Source: a virus. Taken from it: a stretch of 33,606 bases of DNA. Each line of letters begins with the position of its first letter. The stretch's first letter is position 1. Under the pieces are notes generated by a model. The model was not told where the DNA came from. It saw nothing but the letters and a program-made list of their open reading frames with translations, and ran no database searches. The translations under genes and the position numbers were made by a program. The stretch is taken from the IMG/VR virus record IMGVR_UViG_3300037225_000810, positions 1 through 33,606 of that record. One strand, given 5' to 3'. This document shows, piece after piece, positions 16,875-22,939 of this stretch.

Positions 16875-16930
16875 CATACCCTGGCGGGGCAGGATTGAGG
16901 CAAACGGTAGAGCAGAGAAGGAGACGGCAA

Positions 16931-19585
16931 GTGAAAAAAACAAAAAAAGAAAACGGCGTCGATTATCCGGTAGGGGCCTATCTTTACGTTCCGGATCCGG
17001 CAAAACCCGAGACCTGGAAATTACGCTATAAAAATTACACCGACGGTAAACTGAAACTGGATCCCGAGCAGCTGGGTAAAGTAGTTGCCGCATTTTCTCC
17101 CGGAGGCTTCCGCGGGCAGAAAGTAGAGATTCCGGACGCGGACAAAAAGAAAATGATCACTAAGATCCGCGGCATCTATACCAAAACGCTGAAAGTTAAG
17201 GAAGCCGACATGCCGGAAACTCTGCGCGTGACGCAGGACATGAGTTTTGCCGATATCCGCAGTGCCCTTTGGGACGCCGTTCAAGCTCTCAATCCTAACG
17301 ATGACATCTGCATCGAGGATGTTTATCCGGACTACGTGATCTATGAACAGGGCGATTCCTTCTTCAAATGCTCTTATTCGATTCTCGATGGAGTTGTAAC
17401 ACTGGGCGACAAGCCGGTGGAAGTGGAAGAGACATGGATCGAGGCGCCGCGGGTTGCTCAGGATGAAGAATTTTCTCTGATTCTCCGACTCGGGCAGGCG
17501 TTGAATCCGGAAGGATCTTCCTGGGAAGTTGTGATTTGCGAACCGGGATTCACGAAAAACGGCTGTTATATTCCCGATGAAATATTGCGCCAGGGCGCCG
17601 CGGTCCAGTTTGAAGGCCTCGATGTCAATCTCTATGATTTGCCCCAGGGAGCAACCCATGTACCCGGCCCATTGTTCGATATCAAAAGCCTCCTGGTGAA
17701 AAACAAAGTCGGCTGGCTGGATACGGTCCGGCACGTTGCCGGCAAGGGCCTGGTCGGTATTGTGCATTTTCTGGATAGTGCCAAATGGCTGGGCAAAAAT
17801 ATGCTCGAAGCCATGAATCAGGGCAAGAGTATTTATGGATTATCCTGGGACGCGCTAATCCGCGGCGCCCAGGCAGTAATAGAAGGCAAGAACGTATTAC
17901 GGATCGACGGTTTCAACAGAGCCGATTCGCTCGACGTGGTCAGCCGTCCCGCTGCGGGCGGAAAATTTATCAGGGCAGTGGCTGCGATGCCGGCCCAAAA
18001 CGAGGAGGATAAAATGAAAGAAATGCTTTTGAAGTTGATCCAAACGAAGCGGCCGGACCTCCTGAACGGCAAAGATGTGGCGACAATCACCGATCAGGAA
18101 TTGGAAGGATTAGCCAGGATGGCGATGGATGTGCAGACACCGGCTATCGATCCGAAAAACATTGTCACTAAAGACGACCTCGCAGTAATACAGTGCGGGA
18201 TGGCGCTCAAGGACAAACTGGCGGATACGACCCTCGGCCTGCCGCCGATCGCCTTAGAGCGCATCAAAAAGACATTCGAAGGGCGTGTTTATATGGCCGC
18301 GGATCTGGACAAAGCCATAGCCGACGAAAAGGATTATCTGGCCAAAATCAGCACAGTGCTGATTGTGGACAGTATTCCTGCAGGGTCGGTCACCGGCGGC
18401 CTGGGATCATACGAACGTGCCTGCATGGCAGCCGATCGGATGTTCGGCCTGAAAAAAGAAGATATGATCAACATGACGAAGTTGACCACGCTGGACAACA
18501 AACCTTTCTTCACTGACGTCCGCAATGTCCAGGACTATGACGAATTCGATAAGGTTCCGGCATTTTCCAGCATCCGGGAAATGTACACATATTTTACCGG
18601 CGACCCAGAAGTCACAGGCCGTTTCAACCGGAAGGCGCTCCCTCCTGAGTTGCGAAAATCGATGGACTCCATCAGCAGCGCAACGTTCACCTACGTTCTG
18701 GGTAATACTCTGGGCCGCAGATTGGTTGGCATTTACCGGGCGATAGCTTACCTGGAAGAGTTGCTGATCAGCGTGAAAAAGCCGGTCCGCGATTTCCGCA
18801 CCCAGGAAGCAGTACTCGTCGGCGGGTTTGCCGATCTGGAAACGGTCGATCCCGAAAGCGGAGATTATCAGGAAGTTGCCGGCGTCACGGACGAAGAGTC
18901 CAGTTACACCATCGGGCAGAAAGGCAATATCCTGAGCATTACCCGCAAAACAATCATCAATGACGATATCAGCATTATCCAGCGCCTGATCAACGGCCTG
19001 GCACGGGCAGCCCGGAGAACCCACGCGAAATGCGTCTGGGGTCTCTACATCAACAATGGCACCTGTACCGACGGCACAGCCTGGTTCACAGCCGGTCATG
19101 GCAATCTCGGATCGACCGCGTTGTCTTATGTTACGGCGCTGGCCGGATATAAGGTCCTGGCCCTGACAACGGAAAAAGATTCCGGTGAACGCCTCGGCCT
19201 GCTTTCTGACCCGAGCGTGAAACCTAACCTGGTCGGCCCGGTGGATTTGATGGAAACGATCAATAAAATCGCCACCGAACCTTTCTACTACACGACCAAC
19301 GATCTGACGAACAAGACCCCGAACCCTCTGTTGAACAAGATCACTCCCGTTGTCAATCCGCTCCTCACCGACACCAACGACTGGGGTCTGCTGCTTCCTC
19401 CGCAGATCGCCGACATGGTGGAAATGGGGTATCTCAACGGCCGGGAGGATCCGGAACTGTTTGTCGCCGACATGCCGCAGAGCGAGCAGGTCTTCGTCGC
19501 GGATAAGATCCGTCACAAGATCCGGCACGAATATGCGGGCGCCGTGATCGACTGGCGAACTGGCTATAAAGCCGTAGTGGCGTAA
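16931..19585 (+). CDS. Prohead protease-scaffold-major capsid fusion
   Basis: This 884-aa ORF holds three roles that are usually separate. Residues 12-90 (YLYVPDPAKPETWKLRY, then GFRGQKVEIPDAD) are a domain seen by memory on phage prohead proteins. Residues about 165-350 look like a prohead protease; YGLSWDA (Ser305) and SLDVVSRPAAGG (333-344) resemble the end of that fold, with His243, His268 or His279 as partner candidates. Residues about 362-510 are helical and scaffold-like. Residues 515-884 are an HK97-fold capsid like Mu gpT (SITRKTIINDDISIIQRL at 669-686). The GTG start has GAAGGAGA upstream; a TTG at 16895 is less likely. An internal AGGAGG at 18003-18008 precedes Met362, so scaffold-capsid may also be made alone. 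Confidence 0.88.
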   Translation: MKKTKKENGVDYPVGAYLYVPDPAKPETWKLRYKNYTDGKLKLDPEQLGKVVAAFSPGGFRGQKVEIPDADKKKMITKIRGIYTKTLKVKEADMPETLRVTQDMSFADIRSALWDAVQALNPNDDICIEDVYPDYVIYEQGDSFFKCSYSILDGVVTLGDKPVEVEETWIEAPRVAQDEEFSLILRLGQALNPEGSSWEVVICEPGFTKNGCYIPDEILRQGAAVQFEGLDVNLYDLPQGATHVPGPLFDIKSLLVKNKVGWLDTVRHVAGKGLVGIVHFLDSAKWLGKNMLEAMNQGKSIYGLSWDALIRGAQAVIEGKNVLRIDGFNRADSLDVVSRPAAGGKFIRAVAAMPAQNEEDKMKEMLLKLIQTKRPDLLNGKDVATITDQELEGLARMAMDVQTPAIDPKNIVTKDDLAVIQCGMALKDKLADTTLGLPPIALERIKKTFEGRVYMAADLDKAIADEKDYLAKISTVLIVDSIPAGSVTGGLGSYERACMAADRMFGLKKEDMINMTKLTTLDNKPFFTDVRNVQDYDEFDKVPAFSSIREMYTYFTGDPEVTGRFNRKALPPELRKSMDSISSATFTYVLGNTLGRRLVGIYRAIAYLEELLISVKKPVRDFRTQEAVLVGGFADLETVDPESGDYQEVAGVTDEESSYTIGQKGNILSITRKTIINDDISIIQRLINGLARAARRTHAKCVWGLYINNGTCTDGTAWFTAGHGNLGSTALSYVTALAGYKVLALTTEKDSGERLGLLSDPSVKPNLVGPVDLMETINKIATEPFYYTTNDLTNKTPNPLLNKITPVVNPLLTDTNDWGLLLPPQIADMVEMGYLNGREDPELFVADMPQSEQVFVADKIRHKIRHEYAGAVIDWRTGYKAVVA
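18003..18016 (+). promoter_or_regulatory. Internal ribosome-binding site and start in the capsid ORF
   Basis: AGGAGG at 18003-18008 lies five bases before an in-frame ATG at 18014 (Met362 of the fusion), and a second ATG follows at residue 365. Translation from here would give a 523-aa scaffold-capsid protein without the protease. The position falls exactly at the domain border, after the Pro/Ala/Gln/Asn/Glu-rich linker. Nested scaffold genes are known in Mu (I/Z) and lambda (C/Nu3). Confidence 0.65.
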
Positions 19586-19693
19586 GTACAAAATCGACAG
19601 GAGTAAAGAGTAAATCTTGTAAAACTCAGGCAGGGGGGTCAGCCATAAAATAGCCTGCCCCCCTGCCTTAACCAAGCAATTTAGGAGGAAAAA
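19586..19693. terminator. Hairpin after the capsid gene
   Basis: AGGCAGGGGGGTCA (19628-19641) pairs with TGCCCCCCTGCCT (19656-19668) with one bulged T and a 14-base loop. The stem is very GC-rich but has no T-run, so it may be a partial terminator or a 3' stabiliser of the capsid transcript. The rest of the gap holds nothing else that I can see. Confidence 0.55.
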
Positions 19694-20437
19694 ATGAGAA
19701 AGGGATTCGATAAAATATTCAGTGCGCTGTTTGTGCTGGTGTTTCTGTTTATCATCATCGCTTCGGTGTCGACAGACGCATCCGCCACCACCTATAACAT
19801 CAAGCAAGTTGTATCTCATTTCTACGGCACGGCAGGCGAAACCCTGACTACGGGTAACGTGGTTATGATTAAGGATGCCGACGGCTACGCCTATAAAGCA
19901 AATGCCAGTGACAGTACATTGCGTCCAGCGGTCGGCATCGTTGGCAAGGGTGGTAACACCGGACAGACCGTGGAAATTATAACCATCGGTGTGCTTTCCG
20001 GCTGGTCTTCACTTGCTGAAGGCGGAACGGGATTTCTAGCGACAAGCGCAGGAGCGGTAACGCAAACCGAACCTGCCTATGCTCAGAAGATTGCCAGCGC
20101 CATTTCGACAACCGCCTATATGTTCAACTTCGCGGCACATCCGGCGGTCGGATATTATAATGCAGGCACCGGGACCGCCAGCGCCAATACAAATAAACGA
20201 TCGAGCGGATTGTTTTATTCCGGATCAATTACGATAACCGGCGGTACCAGTGCTGTCGTCGCCGGTTTATCGCCGCCCTTTACAAGCACGAGCACGTATA
20301 ATTGTCTTGTCGCACCCGTGGTAGTCGCAGGAACGTCGATCCCATTTTTCTGCGCCAAGACGAGTAGTGCGTCAATCACTGTTTCAACTCCAACATCGAC
20401 GACGGCCACCGTAGATTACATCATTGTGGGATATTAG
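19694..20437 (+). CDS. Cement-like protein with a signal peptide
   Basis: This 247-aa protein has a convincing Sec signal peptide (MRKG, then a hydrophobic stretch to ASVSTDASA). Residues 40-130 read like a capsid-cement domain of the DUF2190 kind: GETLTTGNVVMIKDADGY, AVGIVGKGGNTGQTVEIITI. The rest is Ser/Thr/Gly-rich, beta-type and repetitive, as in virion decoration proteins. It sits right after the capsid gene with a TTTAGGAGG site. A virion protein made in the cytoplasm should not need a signal peptide. Either it is displayed or secreted, or it has become an envelope protein. Confidence 0.65.
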   Translation: MRKGFDKIFSALFVLVFLFIIIASVSTDASATTYNIKQVVSHFYGTAGETLTTGNVVMIKDADGYAYKANASDSTLRPAVGIVGKGGNTGQTVEIITIGVLSGWSSLAEGGTGFLATSAGAVTQTEPAYAQKIASAISTTAYMFNFAAHPAVGYYNAGTGTASANTNKRSSGLFYSGSITITGGTSAVVAGLSPPFTSTSTYNCLVAPVVVAGTSIPFFCAKTSSASITVSTPTSTTATVDYIIVGY

Positions 20438-20441
20438 CGGG

Positions 20442-21020
20442 ATGATGATACTTCGGAAAATACGCCCCGCCCATATTTTTGCGGGCATCTTCGCGTCGAA
20501 TCTTGTCGCTCTTTATTTTGTTCTGGGATCTCCTTTTCAGGATGAATGGAGGGGCAAAGCGCGGGCTCATAATAATCTTGGGCAAGCGTACCAGAACGCC
20601 GGGCGTATCGCGGACGCGAAGCGGCAGTATATGCTCGCCATGCGTAAGAAGCCGAATTATTCCCATCCCTATATCAACATGGGGACGATTCTGGTGATGG
20701 AAAAAGAAGATGCCGAGGCGGCGCTGTTGTTTCAACTGGCGCTAAAAATACAGCCCGATAGCAGCGAGGCCATGTACAATCTGGGAAGTTGCTTAATGCG
20801 CCTGACCAGTCTCGACGAGGCCGCCGAAAAATTTATCGAGCTTATCCGGATGAACAAGATGGTTGCCGAATCACATAACAATCTTGGCGTCATTTGGGTA
20901 AACCAGGGACGATTTGCTGAGGCAATTATCGAATTCCGGGCAGCGTTGAAAGCGGATCCGACTTTTGCCGAGCCGTTAAAGAATATCCTGCGCCTTACCG
21001 GGCAGGAGGAGAAAGGATAA
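20442..21020 (+). CDS. Membrane-anchored TPR protein
   Basis: This 192-aa protein has an N-terminal hydrophobic segment (residues 11-29, IFAGIFASNLVALYFVLG) and then about four TPR units: ARAHNNLGQAYQNAGRIADA, SHPYINMGTILVMEKEDAEA, SEAMYNLGSCLMRLTSLDEA and AESHNNLGVIWVNQGRFAEA. TPRs bind partner proteins. The start (ATG at 20442) has a poor ribosome-binding site and follows the previous stop codon by four bases; a TTG at 20424 overlaps that gene. Nothing of this sort is standard in Mu- or lambda-type head operons. It may scaffold envelope or assembly partners; the function is unknown. Confidence 0.85.
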   Translation: MMILRKIRPAHIFAGIFASNLVALYFVLGSPFQDEWRGKARAHNNLGQAYQNAGRIADAKRQYMLAMRKKPNYSHPYINMGTILVMEKEDAEAALLFQLALKIQPDSSEAMYNLGSCLMRLTSLDEAAEKFIELIRMNKMVAESHNNLGVIWVNQGRFAEAIIEFRAALKADPTFAEPLKNILRLTGQEEKG

Positions 21021-21031
21021 TATTCCATGAG

Positions 21032-21091
21032 CGCGGAGATTGACCACTCCGCGAATCTCCTTTCCGGCGGATGACTCGAAGCATCCGCCGG
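21032..21091. other. Two tandem hairpins after the TPR gene
   Basis: CGCGGAG (21032-21038) pairs with CTCCGCG (21047-21053), and CCGGCGGATG (21064-21073) pairs with CATCCGCCGG (21082-21091), which is followed by only three T. Both lie in a 177-base gap that otherwise holds the leader and ribosome-binding site of the next gene. A terminator or REP-like function is possible. Confidence 0.5.
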
Positions 21092-21197
21092 TTTCCAGGG
21101 ACGGCAAACGACCAATTTGCCGGATCCGGAAGCCGAAAAGACGGGAAATTAGATAAGTTGTCGCCGATTGCATTACGCTACAGCAGGAGGTTTCAAG

Positions 21198-21695
21198 ATG
21201 ATCGATCGCGTTAAAATGCGTTTTAAGGCCCCGATCTCAAAAAAAGCGACCCATTGGGCATCCAGGGGGGGCAAAATTGAAAACAGACGGGGTATTGCGC
21301 GAAGCTTTATGGCGTTTACGATTATCCTGACCCTGATTTTTGCATTTTTCACATCCGCCCAGGCCGAAGATCACAAAACTCGCACCATCACCCTGCTATC
21401 CTCCGGGATAAAAACCGCCTCGACGGCGCAATCGTCTTCTTTCGATGTATCGTCTTATGCCGAGGGGCAGATCTTCGTCGACGTGACTGCGGAGGGTGGT
21501 ACCTCAACCCTGGATATCACCGTCCAGACCTCTCCGGATAACTCGACCTGGTACACGCACACGGCCATGACGCAGATCACATCGACGGGGCAGTACCGGC
21601 AGGTGATTACCAACTTCGGCAATTATCTGCGGATTAACTATACCGTCGGCGTGACGTCGTTCACCTTCTCGGTGGTGGGAGTGTTTAAGAATTGA
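21198..21695 (+). CDS. Beta-rich decoration-like protein with a signal peptide
   Basis: This 165-aa protein has a long basic N-terminus and then a signal-like helix (MAFTIILTLIFAFFTSAQA) with a cut before EDHK. The mature part resembles a common phage beta-sandwich family found near capsid genes: FDVSSYAEGQIFVDVTAEGG, LDITVQTSPDNSTWY, YLRINYTVG. An AGGAGG six bases upstream supports the ATG at 21198; an internal ATG at residue 38 would give a normal-length signal peptide. Like the cement-like gene it joins a virion-type domain to an export signal. The long basic leader is odd for Sec substrates and may mean that translation starts inside. Confidence 0.6.
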   Translation: MIDRVKMRFKAPISKKATHWASRGGKIENRRGIARSFMAFTIILTLIFAFFTSAQAEDHKTRTITLLSSGIKTASTAQSSSFDVSSYAEGQIFVDVTAEGGTSTLDITVQTSPDNSTWYTHTAMTQITSTGQYRQVITNFGNYLRINYTVGVTSFTFSVVGVFKN

Positions 21696-21746: not shown

Positions 21747-22442
21747 ATGACCACAAGACAAGATTTTATCACTGCGATCGGGAGTCTGGTAAAGGGCGAC
21801 TTTCCGCTGGGTGAACCGGAAAAGATTCTGGCGCTGAGCAAGGCGGTCAAACGCTACTCACAGGACCGGCCGCGGGAAGTTGTGGAAGACGAAGTCGGGA
21901 ACGGCACTCCTGACTATGCATTGACGCTCCTAGCATCCTGGGCGGAAGGCTTTTCCACGGTCAAAAAGATCGAATATCCGCTCGATGCGCTCGATGACGA
22001 CGATGCCAACACTCTCCAGGAAGATTCCTGGAAGATTTACAACAAACCGGCCGGGAAAGTGATCCGGTTCGTGGATGATAAACCCGTGGCGACGGAATCC
22101 ATGCGCATTACCTATACCGCCCTGCATGTCTGCGATGATACGCAGTCCACAATTCCGGTCGCGGACGAGGAAGCGGTGCAAATGCTCGCGGCATCTGGGT
22201 TCTGCAATATGTTGGCCACCTATTATGCCAATTCCCAGGATAGCACAATTCAGGCCGATTCCGTCGATCACAAAAGCAAATCAGGAGACTATGCGGCCAG
22301 GGCGAAGACCTACCGCCAGCAATATTTTGACCATCTGGGCCTCCAGGAAGGCGAAGTCCCTCCGGCGAGTGTGACGCGCGACCAGGATACACGGCCCAGT
22401 TGGAGGAGTGATCAATTAACGCACCCGAGGAAATTCAGGTAA
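21747..22442 (+). CDS. Head-tail connector-like protein
   Basis: This 231-aa helical protein lies at the head-to-tail transition. Helices at the N-terminus (TTRQDFITAIGSLVKGDF, then ILALSKAVKRYSQDRP) and the C-terminal helix (YAARAKTYRQQYFDHLG) match the general plan of gp6/gp15-type connectors. The first segments resemble phage proteins that begin with an LVRG-type initial helix. The start has a GGAGTAAGG region upstream, and its stop codon overlaps the next ATG as TAATG. The call rests on position and fold pattern, not on a named family. Confidence 0.6.
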   Translation: MTTRQDFITAIGSLVKGDFPLGEPEKILALSKAVKRYSQDRPREVVEDEVGNGTPDYALTLLASWAEGFSTVKKIEYPLDALDDDDANTLQEDSWKIYNKPAGKVIRFVDDKPVATESMRITYTALHVCDDTQSTIPVADEEAVQMLAASGFCNMLATYYANSQDSTIQADSVDHKSKSGDYAARAKTYRQQYFDHLGLQEGEVPPASVTRDQDTRPSWRSDQLTHPRKFR

Positions 22443-22939
22443 TGGAATTTAAAATTACCGCCGACATGAAAGAAATGGAGCAGCTGATAGCCAAGTGGCC
22501 GCAGGCCGCTCATGACGCGCAGGTCTCGCGTGTTACAGAAGCATCGCTTCTCATGGAAGGTGCAATCAAACAACTAACCCCTGTCGGCGCCGGGCCGATC
22601 CATTTACGAGATACGATATTTCATAAGATCGAGGCCTTTGGAGAAAATGTCTGGGGTCTGATTTCGACTCCGGCTGTGTATGGTGAACCGGTGGAGCTGG
22701 GCACGCGCCCGCACTTCCCGCCTGTGGCTCCCATTCAACACTGGGTGGAAAAGCAGATGGGCCTGTCCGGTAGTGAAGCTAAATCCGTCGCTTTCCTGAT
22801 TGCTCGCGCGATATCAAAACGCGGCACAAAGGCGCAGAAAATGTTTACGATTTCCGTGGAGCAACATGAGGCGGACGTTATCCGGATCCTCGAGCAGATC
22901 CCGGCGGATATTCTACAGAAAGTGACGAAGGGGCATTAA
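22442..22939 (+). CDS. HK97 gp10-like head-tail/tail-completion protein
   Basis: This 165-aa protein has an N-terminal helix over residues 8-40 and the motif GEPVELGTRPHFPPVAPIQH with WVEKQMG behind it, typical of HK97-gp10 and related tail-completion proteins (variant YA-x-VEfGT). It lies between the connector and the putative tail terminator, in the usual order. The adjacent gene starts directly after its stop codon. Confident at family level; less so for the exact role. Confidence 0.8.
   Translation: MEFKITADMKEMEQLIAKWPQAAHDAQVSRVTEASLLMEGAIKQLTPVGAGPIHLRDTIFHKIEAFGENVWGLISTPAVYGEPVELGTRPHFPPVAPIQHWVEKQMGLSGSEAKSVAFLIARAISKRGTKAQKMFTISVEQHEADVIRILEQIPADILQKVTKGH

Follow-up and report, generated by a model that had tools for sequence, protein, structure and literature searches.

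Two capsid cements of unrelated fold, encoded close together in the head operon of a lineage of Mu-like siphophages from environmental, mostly delta-proteobacterial hosts, are both predicted to begin with a conserved, classical and cleavable signal peptide. Decoration of the heads of tailed phages normally takes place in the cytoplasm, and the original prediction, made on the DNA of one of these phages, had pointed to the resulting paradox of virion-type proteins that bear export signals. The paradox is genuine, as the signals are conserved and do not arise from an error in the choice of start codons. The reading that we tentatively favor, with a little less than an even chance of being correct, is that of an export-routed capsid decoration module, in which periplasmic cements would join the virions at lysis. 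Conserved signals on two unrelated cements imply either that capsids are finished outside the cytoplasm or that cements have been re-used wholesale in the envelope. Extracytoplasmic finishing, if true, would open the capsid to chemistry that is available only in the periplasm, such as glycosylation, and the Wzy_C ligase found within the head operon of relatives provides a concrete enzymatic hypothesis.

The stretch of DNA analyzed, referred to here as the window, is an entire virus record of 33,606 b from a Mu-like transposable siphophage, with MuA/MuB-like genes recognized by inspection in its left part. The gene order is terminase, portal, MuF, protease-MCP, cement, TPR, beta, head completion, neck, tail tube, tape measure, and tip, and all of the head and neck features located below lie on the + strand. 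The fused head protease/major capsid protein (MCP) occupies positions 16895–19585, with PF25209 in its C-terminal third. The first gene past beta (21747–22442) is assigned to a head-completion type protein by its position and the conserved order in relatives, and is followed by that of a neck/tail completion protein (22442–22939; phrog_5). Relatives were gathered from viral contigs and genomes by means of the MCP, beta, and cement proteins and are mostly metagenomic contigs; the order MCP-cement-(insert)-beta-head completion recurs among them. The matches in genomes are MAG contigs labeled Deltaproteobacteria, Syntrophobacterales, Desulfomicrobium, and Desulfonema, along with single Verrucomicrobiales and Spirochaetes bins, all labels in which binning errors are possible. 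A family search over 297 genomes yielded only two additional weak matches.

The cement gene lies directly 3' of that encoding the MCP in the window and in most relatives. Its start is the ATG at 19694, 5 nt behind the Shine-Dalgarno sequence AGGAGG (19683–19688), the strength of which fits a high copy number. Residues 1–31 (19694–19786) form a predicted Sec-type signal peptide with the n-region MRKGFDK, a hydrophobic core with a mean Kyte-Doolittle value of about 3.8, and an end that reads SVSTDASA before TTYN, so that cleavage is placed between ASA and TT both by rules and by the matching start of a signal-less homologue (L046, discussed below). The mature domain (19787–20146) is modeled with a pLDDT of about 97 over residues 1–120 and is followed by a Ser/Thr-rich C-terminal extension without a confident model (20147–20434). 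Foldseek matches the domain to the decoration proteins of Adjutor, HFTV1, Sf11, TW1, and Pam3, to the base of the phi29 head fiber, and to lambda gpD, at E-values that are modest (8.6e-5 and weaker). The window protein itself gave no direct Pfam match, and 14 of 34 cement relatives matched Phage_cement_2 (PF09956); for that of L021, the score was 27.7 bits against a curated cut-off of 24, and the match begins at residue 35, past the signal. We regard the window protein as a putative virion component, a capsid cement of the Phage_cement_2/gpD-like kind. It shares domain, size, and position after the MCP with the PF09956/gpD-like proteins of Pam3, TW1, Sf11, and Adjutor, but the cements of this clade add about 30 N-terminal residues, corresponding to the signal peptide, and often a fiber-like C-terminal extension. 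The longer ones thereby resemble the phi29 head fiber gp8.5, which has a capsid-binding base and a variable distal part and which we take to lack an export signal. The cement profile further picked up a segment of a phage neck fiber (8keg; E 1.7e-9), and the fold is therefore also used in fibers. Long cements of L002, L020, L040, L070, L072, and L095 contain repeated blocks resembling 'GATPLIFEGATADAYETTL-DPTADRTVTLPD', the tail-fiber PHROG phrog_38058 is matched by 8 of the 34 cement members scanned, and long cements with that match are candidate head fibers. Cement variants are exchanged freely between MCP backgrounds (10–14 changes on the MCP tree), a pattern that speaks against a tight coevolution of cement and MCP.

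Most MCP-cement gaps (about 60–150 b; 19586–19693 in the window) contain a stable hairpin, in many cases rich in GC, ahead of a very strong Shine-Dalgarno sequence; in the window, the hairpin has an 11-bp perfect stem (19628–19668). The sequence of the hairpin differs between relatives, and several gaps are made up of short direct repeats. It is possibly a stabilizer of mRNA or a partial terminator that sets the ratio of capsid protein to cement.

The start of beta is the ATG at 21198, which is preceded by AGGAGG and replaces the TTG at 21168. Its predicted Sec-type signal peptide (residues 1–56; 21198–21365) has an unusually long basic n-region of about 38 aa and ends in FTSAQA before EDHK, with cleavage between AQA and ED. 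This n-region (21198–21311) is far beyond the usual length in many relatives as well, and it is reminiscent of the extended signal peptides that slow export; no twin-arginine motif was seen in it by eye. The mature protein (21366–21692) is predicted as one jelly roll with a pLDDT of 93.9. Against the PDB, the beta profile gave a weak but significant match to the cementing protein of BPP-1 (3j4u_H, E 0.0023), and that to Pfam Bbp16 (E 0.013) fell below the cut-off. Foldseek returned XepA first, then Carin1 (TM 0.64) and BPP-1 3j4u_H (TM 0.58) among many jelly rolls. Because the jelly roll is a common fold, the putative assignment of beta to the cements of the BPP-1/Carin1 kind draws on its sequence match together with its gene position. 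The cements of BPP-1 (Bbp16, 3j4u) and Carin1 (8cjz) share with beta both the fold and the head-gene neighborhood and differ from it in the 56-residue signal peptide, of which we found no description for cements of this type in the literature. The virion-type character originally ascribed to both proteins is thus upheld by cement folds recognized through Pfam, HMM, and structure searches.

Signal peptides were called across the head genes by a fixed rule, demanding charge before a hydrophobic core and then an AxA-like site, with the start taken at the best ribosome site; the calls rest on this rule and on control families, in place of SignalP. Of the 52 distinct cement proteins, 51 have a signal-like N terminus, as do 41 of the 50 beta proteins, 4 of which show the core only and 37 an AxA-like site as well. 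The same rule applied to seven other head and neck families gave rates of 0–2%: MCP, 1/64; head completion, 0/54; neck, 0/47; tail completion, 0/44; MuF, 0/37; portal, 0/34; and terminase, 0/20. Among the nine beta proteins without a call, four are artefacts in which the start was mis-picked or the frame is a fragment or fused (L019, L027, L098, and the second of L105), and the other five, from distant phages, are truly signal-less homologues (L056, L102, L103, L105, and L106). Every assessable beta protein within the clade carries a signal, and so the claim that both proteins start with a Sec signal extends well beyond the window. Between related phages, amino acid change is usually two to five times faster in the signal than in the mature part, and pN is mostly 0.3–0.55 in the signal segment compared with 0.1–0.2 in the mature part. 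The basic n-region, core, and AxA site are retained despite this divergence, a combination that is the signature of functionally constrained signal peptides. Ser and Thr make up 18.6% of signaled and 12.2% of signal-less cements, and 26.4 and 21.2%, respectively, of the beta proteins, with 4–5 signal-less proteins in the comparison; the enrichment fits either export or O-glycosylation. Disulfide formation was considered as a reason for export and rejected, as the cements contain few cysteines, the short ones about one each, and those without a signal do not differ in this respect.

Distant homologues also bear on the start codons. In L046, the MCP of which is 33% identical, a signal-less cement starts with 'MAAYVKSQGKRL', which aligns with the predicted mature end 'AAYSVKQVW' of signaled cements. 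The signal-less beta proteins of L102, L103, L105, and L106 likewise start at about the predicted mature end of the signaled ones, and in L103 the beta gene lies directly 5' of that for head completion. That homologues lacking the signal begin at about the mature end, at the same gene position, indicates that the start codons are correct. It had been foreseen that signal-less relatives might expose wrongly chosen starts; instead, all close relatives are signaled, and in the distant ones the extension is missing altogether. In five isolated phages whose MCP belongs to the same class, the gene immediately 3' of the MCP encodes a signal-less PF09956 cement, which identifies the slot as one for decoration. 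It is likely from these unrooted comparisons that signals were gained on both proteins in this lineage, which would make export a derived and maintained trait.

The membrane-anchored TPR protein that the original prediction placed between cement and beta is present in the window, and the start of its gene was moved from the TTG at 20424 to the ATG at 20442, 4 nt behind the cement stop. The TPR protein (20442–21020) has a single N-terminal hydrophobic segment preceded by K/R, which predicts a periplasmic location for the TPR side, and a hairpin with a 10-bp perfect stem lies 3' of its gene (21064–21091). Its matches in the PDB are generic TPRs and OGT, and those in NCBIfam, such as PilW, are all below the cut-off. 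The scan of viral contigs found no relative of it, and the proposal that the three genes form one system, for which receptor masking, tethering of particles to the envelope, or surface display had been put forward as candidate functions, was therefore abandoned: the TPR gene occurs in this window only and is a local insertion particular to it.

In relatives, the slot between cement and beta holds either nothing or a Wzy_C enzyme, a polytopic membrane protein of the O-antigen ligase/PglL type that is absent from the window. PF04932 was found in all four slot proteins scanned, above the cut-off in three, and the A-H-N motif of Wzy_C is invariant (14/14). PglL_A (PF15864) was not found in the scanned proteins, and with PF04932 alone, WaaL, Wzy, and PglL activities are indistinguishable. 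The family spans WaaL and PglL enzymes, of which those of the PglL type commonly adjoin the gene of an exported substrate (PMC3643930). The relatives' enzyme shares its Wzy_C domain, polytopic build, and A-H-N motif with these ligases, including those of phages D3 and VarioGold, but differs in being encoded inside a head operon, between two cement genes with predicted export signals. The stop of Wzy_C overlaps the start of beta (ATGA) in L009, L021, L041, and L044, and the insert hence belongs to the late operon. Of the 21 loci whose cement is short (domain only, under 200 aa), 16 encode the enzyme, and none of the 22 with a long cement does (Fisher 8e-8); on the MCP tree, 7/7 independent pairs agree (p about 0.016). 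On the cement's own tree, however, cement length and Wzy_C change only 3 and 2 times. With so few changes, a short cement and ligase moving together as a cassette explains the association equally well, and it was rejected as proof of function. In the distant L054 (MCP 35%), the MCP is followed by an unrelated gene with a signal and this, in turn, by a Wzy_C-like gene.

In the mechanism that we favor, the two cements would be made late and abundantly from the MCP operon and exported through Sec; having lost their signals, they would fold in the periplasm, where they would be kept apart from the procapsids. Upon lysis, holin and endolysin would mix cytoplasm with periplasm, allowing the cements to bind finished heads. 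The passage through the periplasm would permit modification, in many relatives by the intervening Wzy_C ligase, and the TPR protein would be a local accessory that is exposed on the periplasmic side of the inner membrane and may help in docking or act as a chaperone. Several considerations count against this scheme: head assembly is cytoplasmic, and cements that decorate after lysis would be diluted; the best structural match of beta, XepA, is exported yet reported absent from mature particles; and cement variants move freely between MCP backgrounds. In a more specific version, which we consider rather doubtful, cements that receive a host lipid-linked glycan from the phage Wzy_C in the periplasm, or that bear a fiber-like extension, would coat the heads at lysis with sugar or fibers; in the window, the cement has the extension, and the predicted periplasmic TPR protein occupies the ligase slot.

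The most serious competitor to decoration at lysis, and a real possibility even though we lean away from it, is that former cements have been co-opted for the envelope. Exported late, they would serve in the periplasm or on the cell surface to promote lysis, to mask receptors, or to block re-adsorption or superinfection, and would not be part of the virion. The signal peptides on both proteins are compatible with this, as is the occurrence at the same place in L026, L027, L008, and L013 of further exported LamG- or fiber-like ORFs and a lipoprotein. Host surface glycans are the known or proposed targets of the Wzy_C enzymes of D3 and VarioGold (PMC9658991), and XepA of the prophage PBSX, the closest PDB fold to beta and a phage jelly-roll protein located outside the cytoplasm, is exported, reported absent from mature particles, and cytotoxic (PMC6834076). 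The parallel is nonetheless incomplete, because XepA comprises two jelly rolls and is encoded in a lysis cassette, in contrast to the single jelly roll, head operon location, and signal peptide of beta. We also presume that XepA itself has no signal peptide. Furthermore, the genes remain in the operon for MCP and head completion, in the order known for virion cements that lack a signal, and the joint move of two independent cement folds suggests that a whole virion coat was re-routed.

Less probable, and in our estimation unlikely, is that the N termini are used for export inefficiently or not at all, such that a cytoplasmic pool or an assembly anchored in the inner membrane decorates the heads with the N terminus retained. 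The normally cytoplasmic site of decoration is in its favor, as is the n-region of beta, which at about 38 aa could slow export. It is at odds with canonical AxA sites that lie exactly at the domain boundary and are kept over large divergence, with the positive-inside rule, which puts the cement domain outside, and with the near lack of alternative internal starts: none with Shine-Dalgarno support was found 3' of the core in any beta protein, and the weak candidates in 5 of 51 cements lie deep in the domain. That the block of cement, Wzy_C (or TPR), and beta is instead a moron, expressed in the prophage and altering the host surface, seems highly improbable. Wzy_C proteins of phages such as D3 do serve seroconversion, and that of VarioGold has been proposed to be moron-like and active in lysogeny but is located outside the head genes (PMC9658991). 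The genes considered here form part of the late head operon, stop and start codons overlap at the junctions with beta and head completion in several relatives, and promoter-like sites around the block are no more frequent than expected by chance. Wrong starts or chance hydrophobic stretches in ordinary cytosolic cements, for which nothing speaks beyond the oddity of the claim, are scarcely credible given the 51/52 conservation, the ribosome sites on the signal start, and the lack of a usable internal start.

The suggestion that no phage module like this had been described held for the collections and literature searched. Neither cement, beta, nor Wzy_C found a match by tblastn in 50,697 phage records, and no description of cements with signal peptides or of exported cements turned up in a literature searched mostly without subscription journals.

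Other proteins with predicted export signals are encoded near head genes. An unusually large cassette of them lies inside the head genes of L027 (12789–18555), where five extra signal-bearing ORFs, one of them for a LamG/beta-helix protein of at least 543 aa, accompany the signaled cement and beta. Small signal-bearing proteins that are unrelated to the cement are encoded directly behind Mu-type MCPs in a Bacteroidetes prophage (L061, 10881–11363), in which a signal-less cement-like gene comes next, and in a Syntrophobacterales prophage (L054, 12357–12851); their sequences suggest that exported proteins of the head slot arose more than once. In the window itself, the − strand at 306–764, beside the left-end repressor gene, encodes a small protein of 152 aa with a strong signal peptide, predicted export, and no Pfam match, which is a candidate for an envelope or exclusion factor expressed by the prophage.
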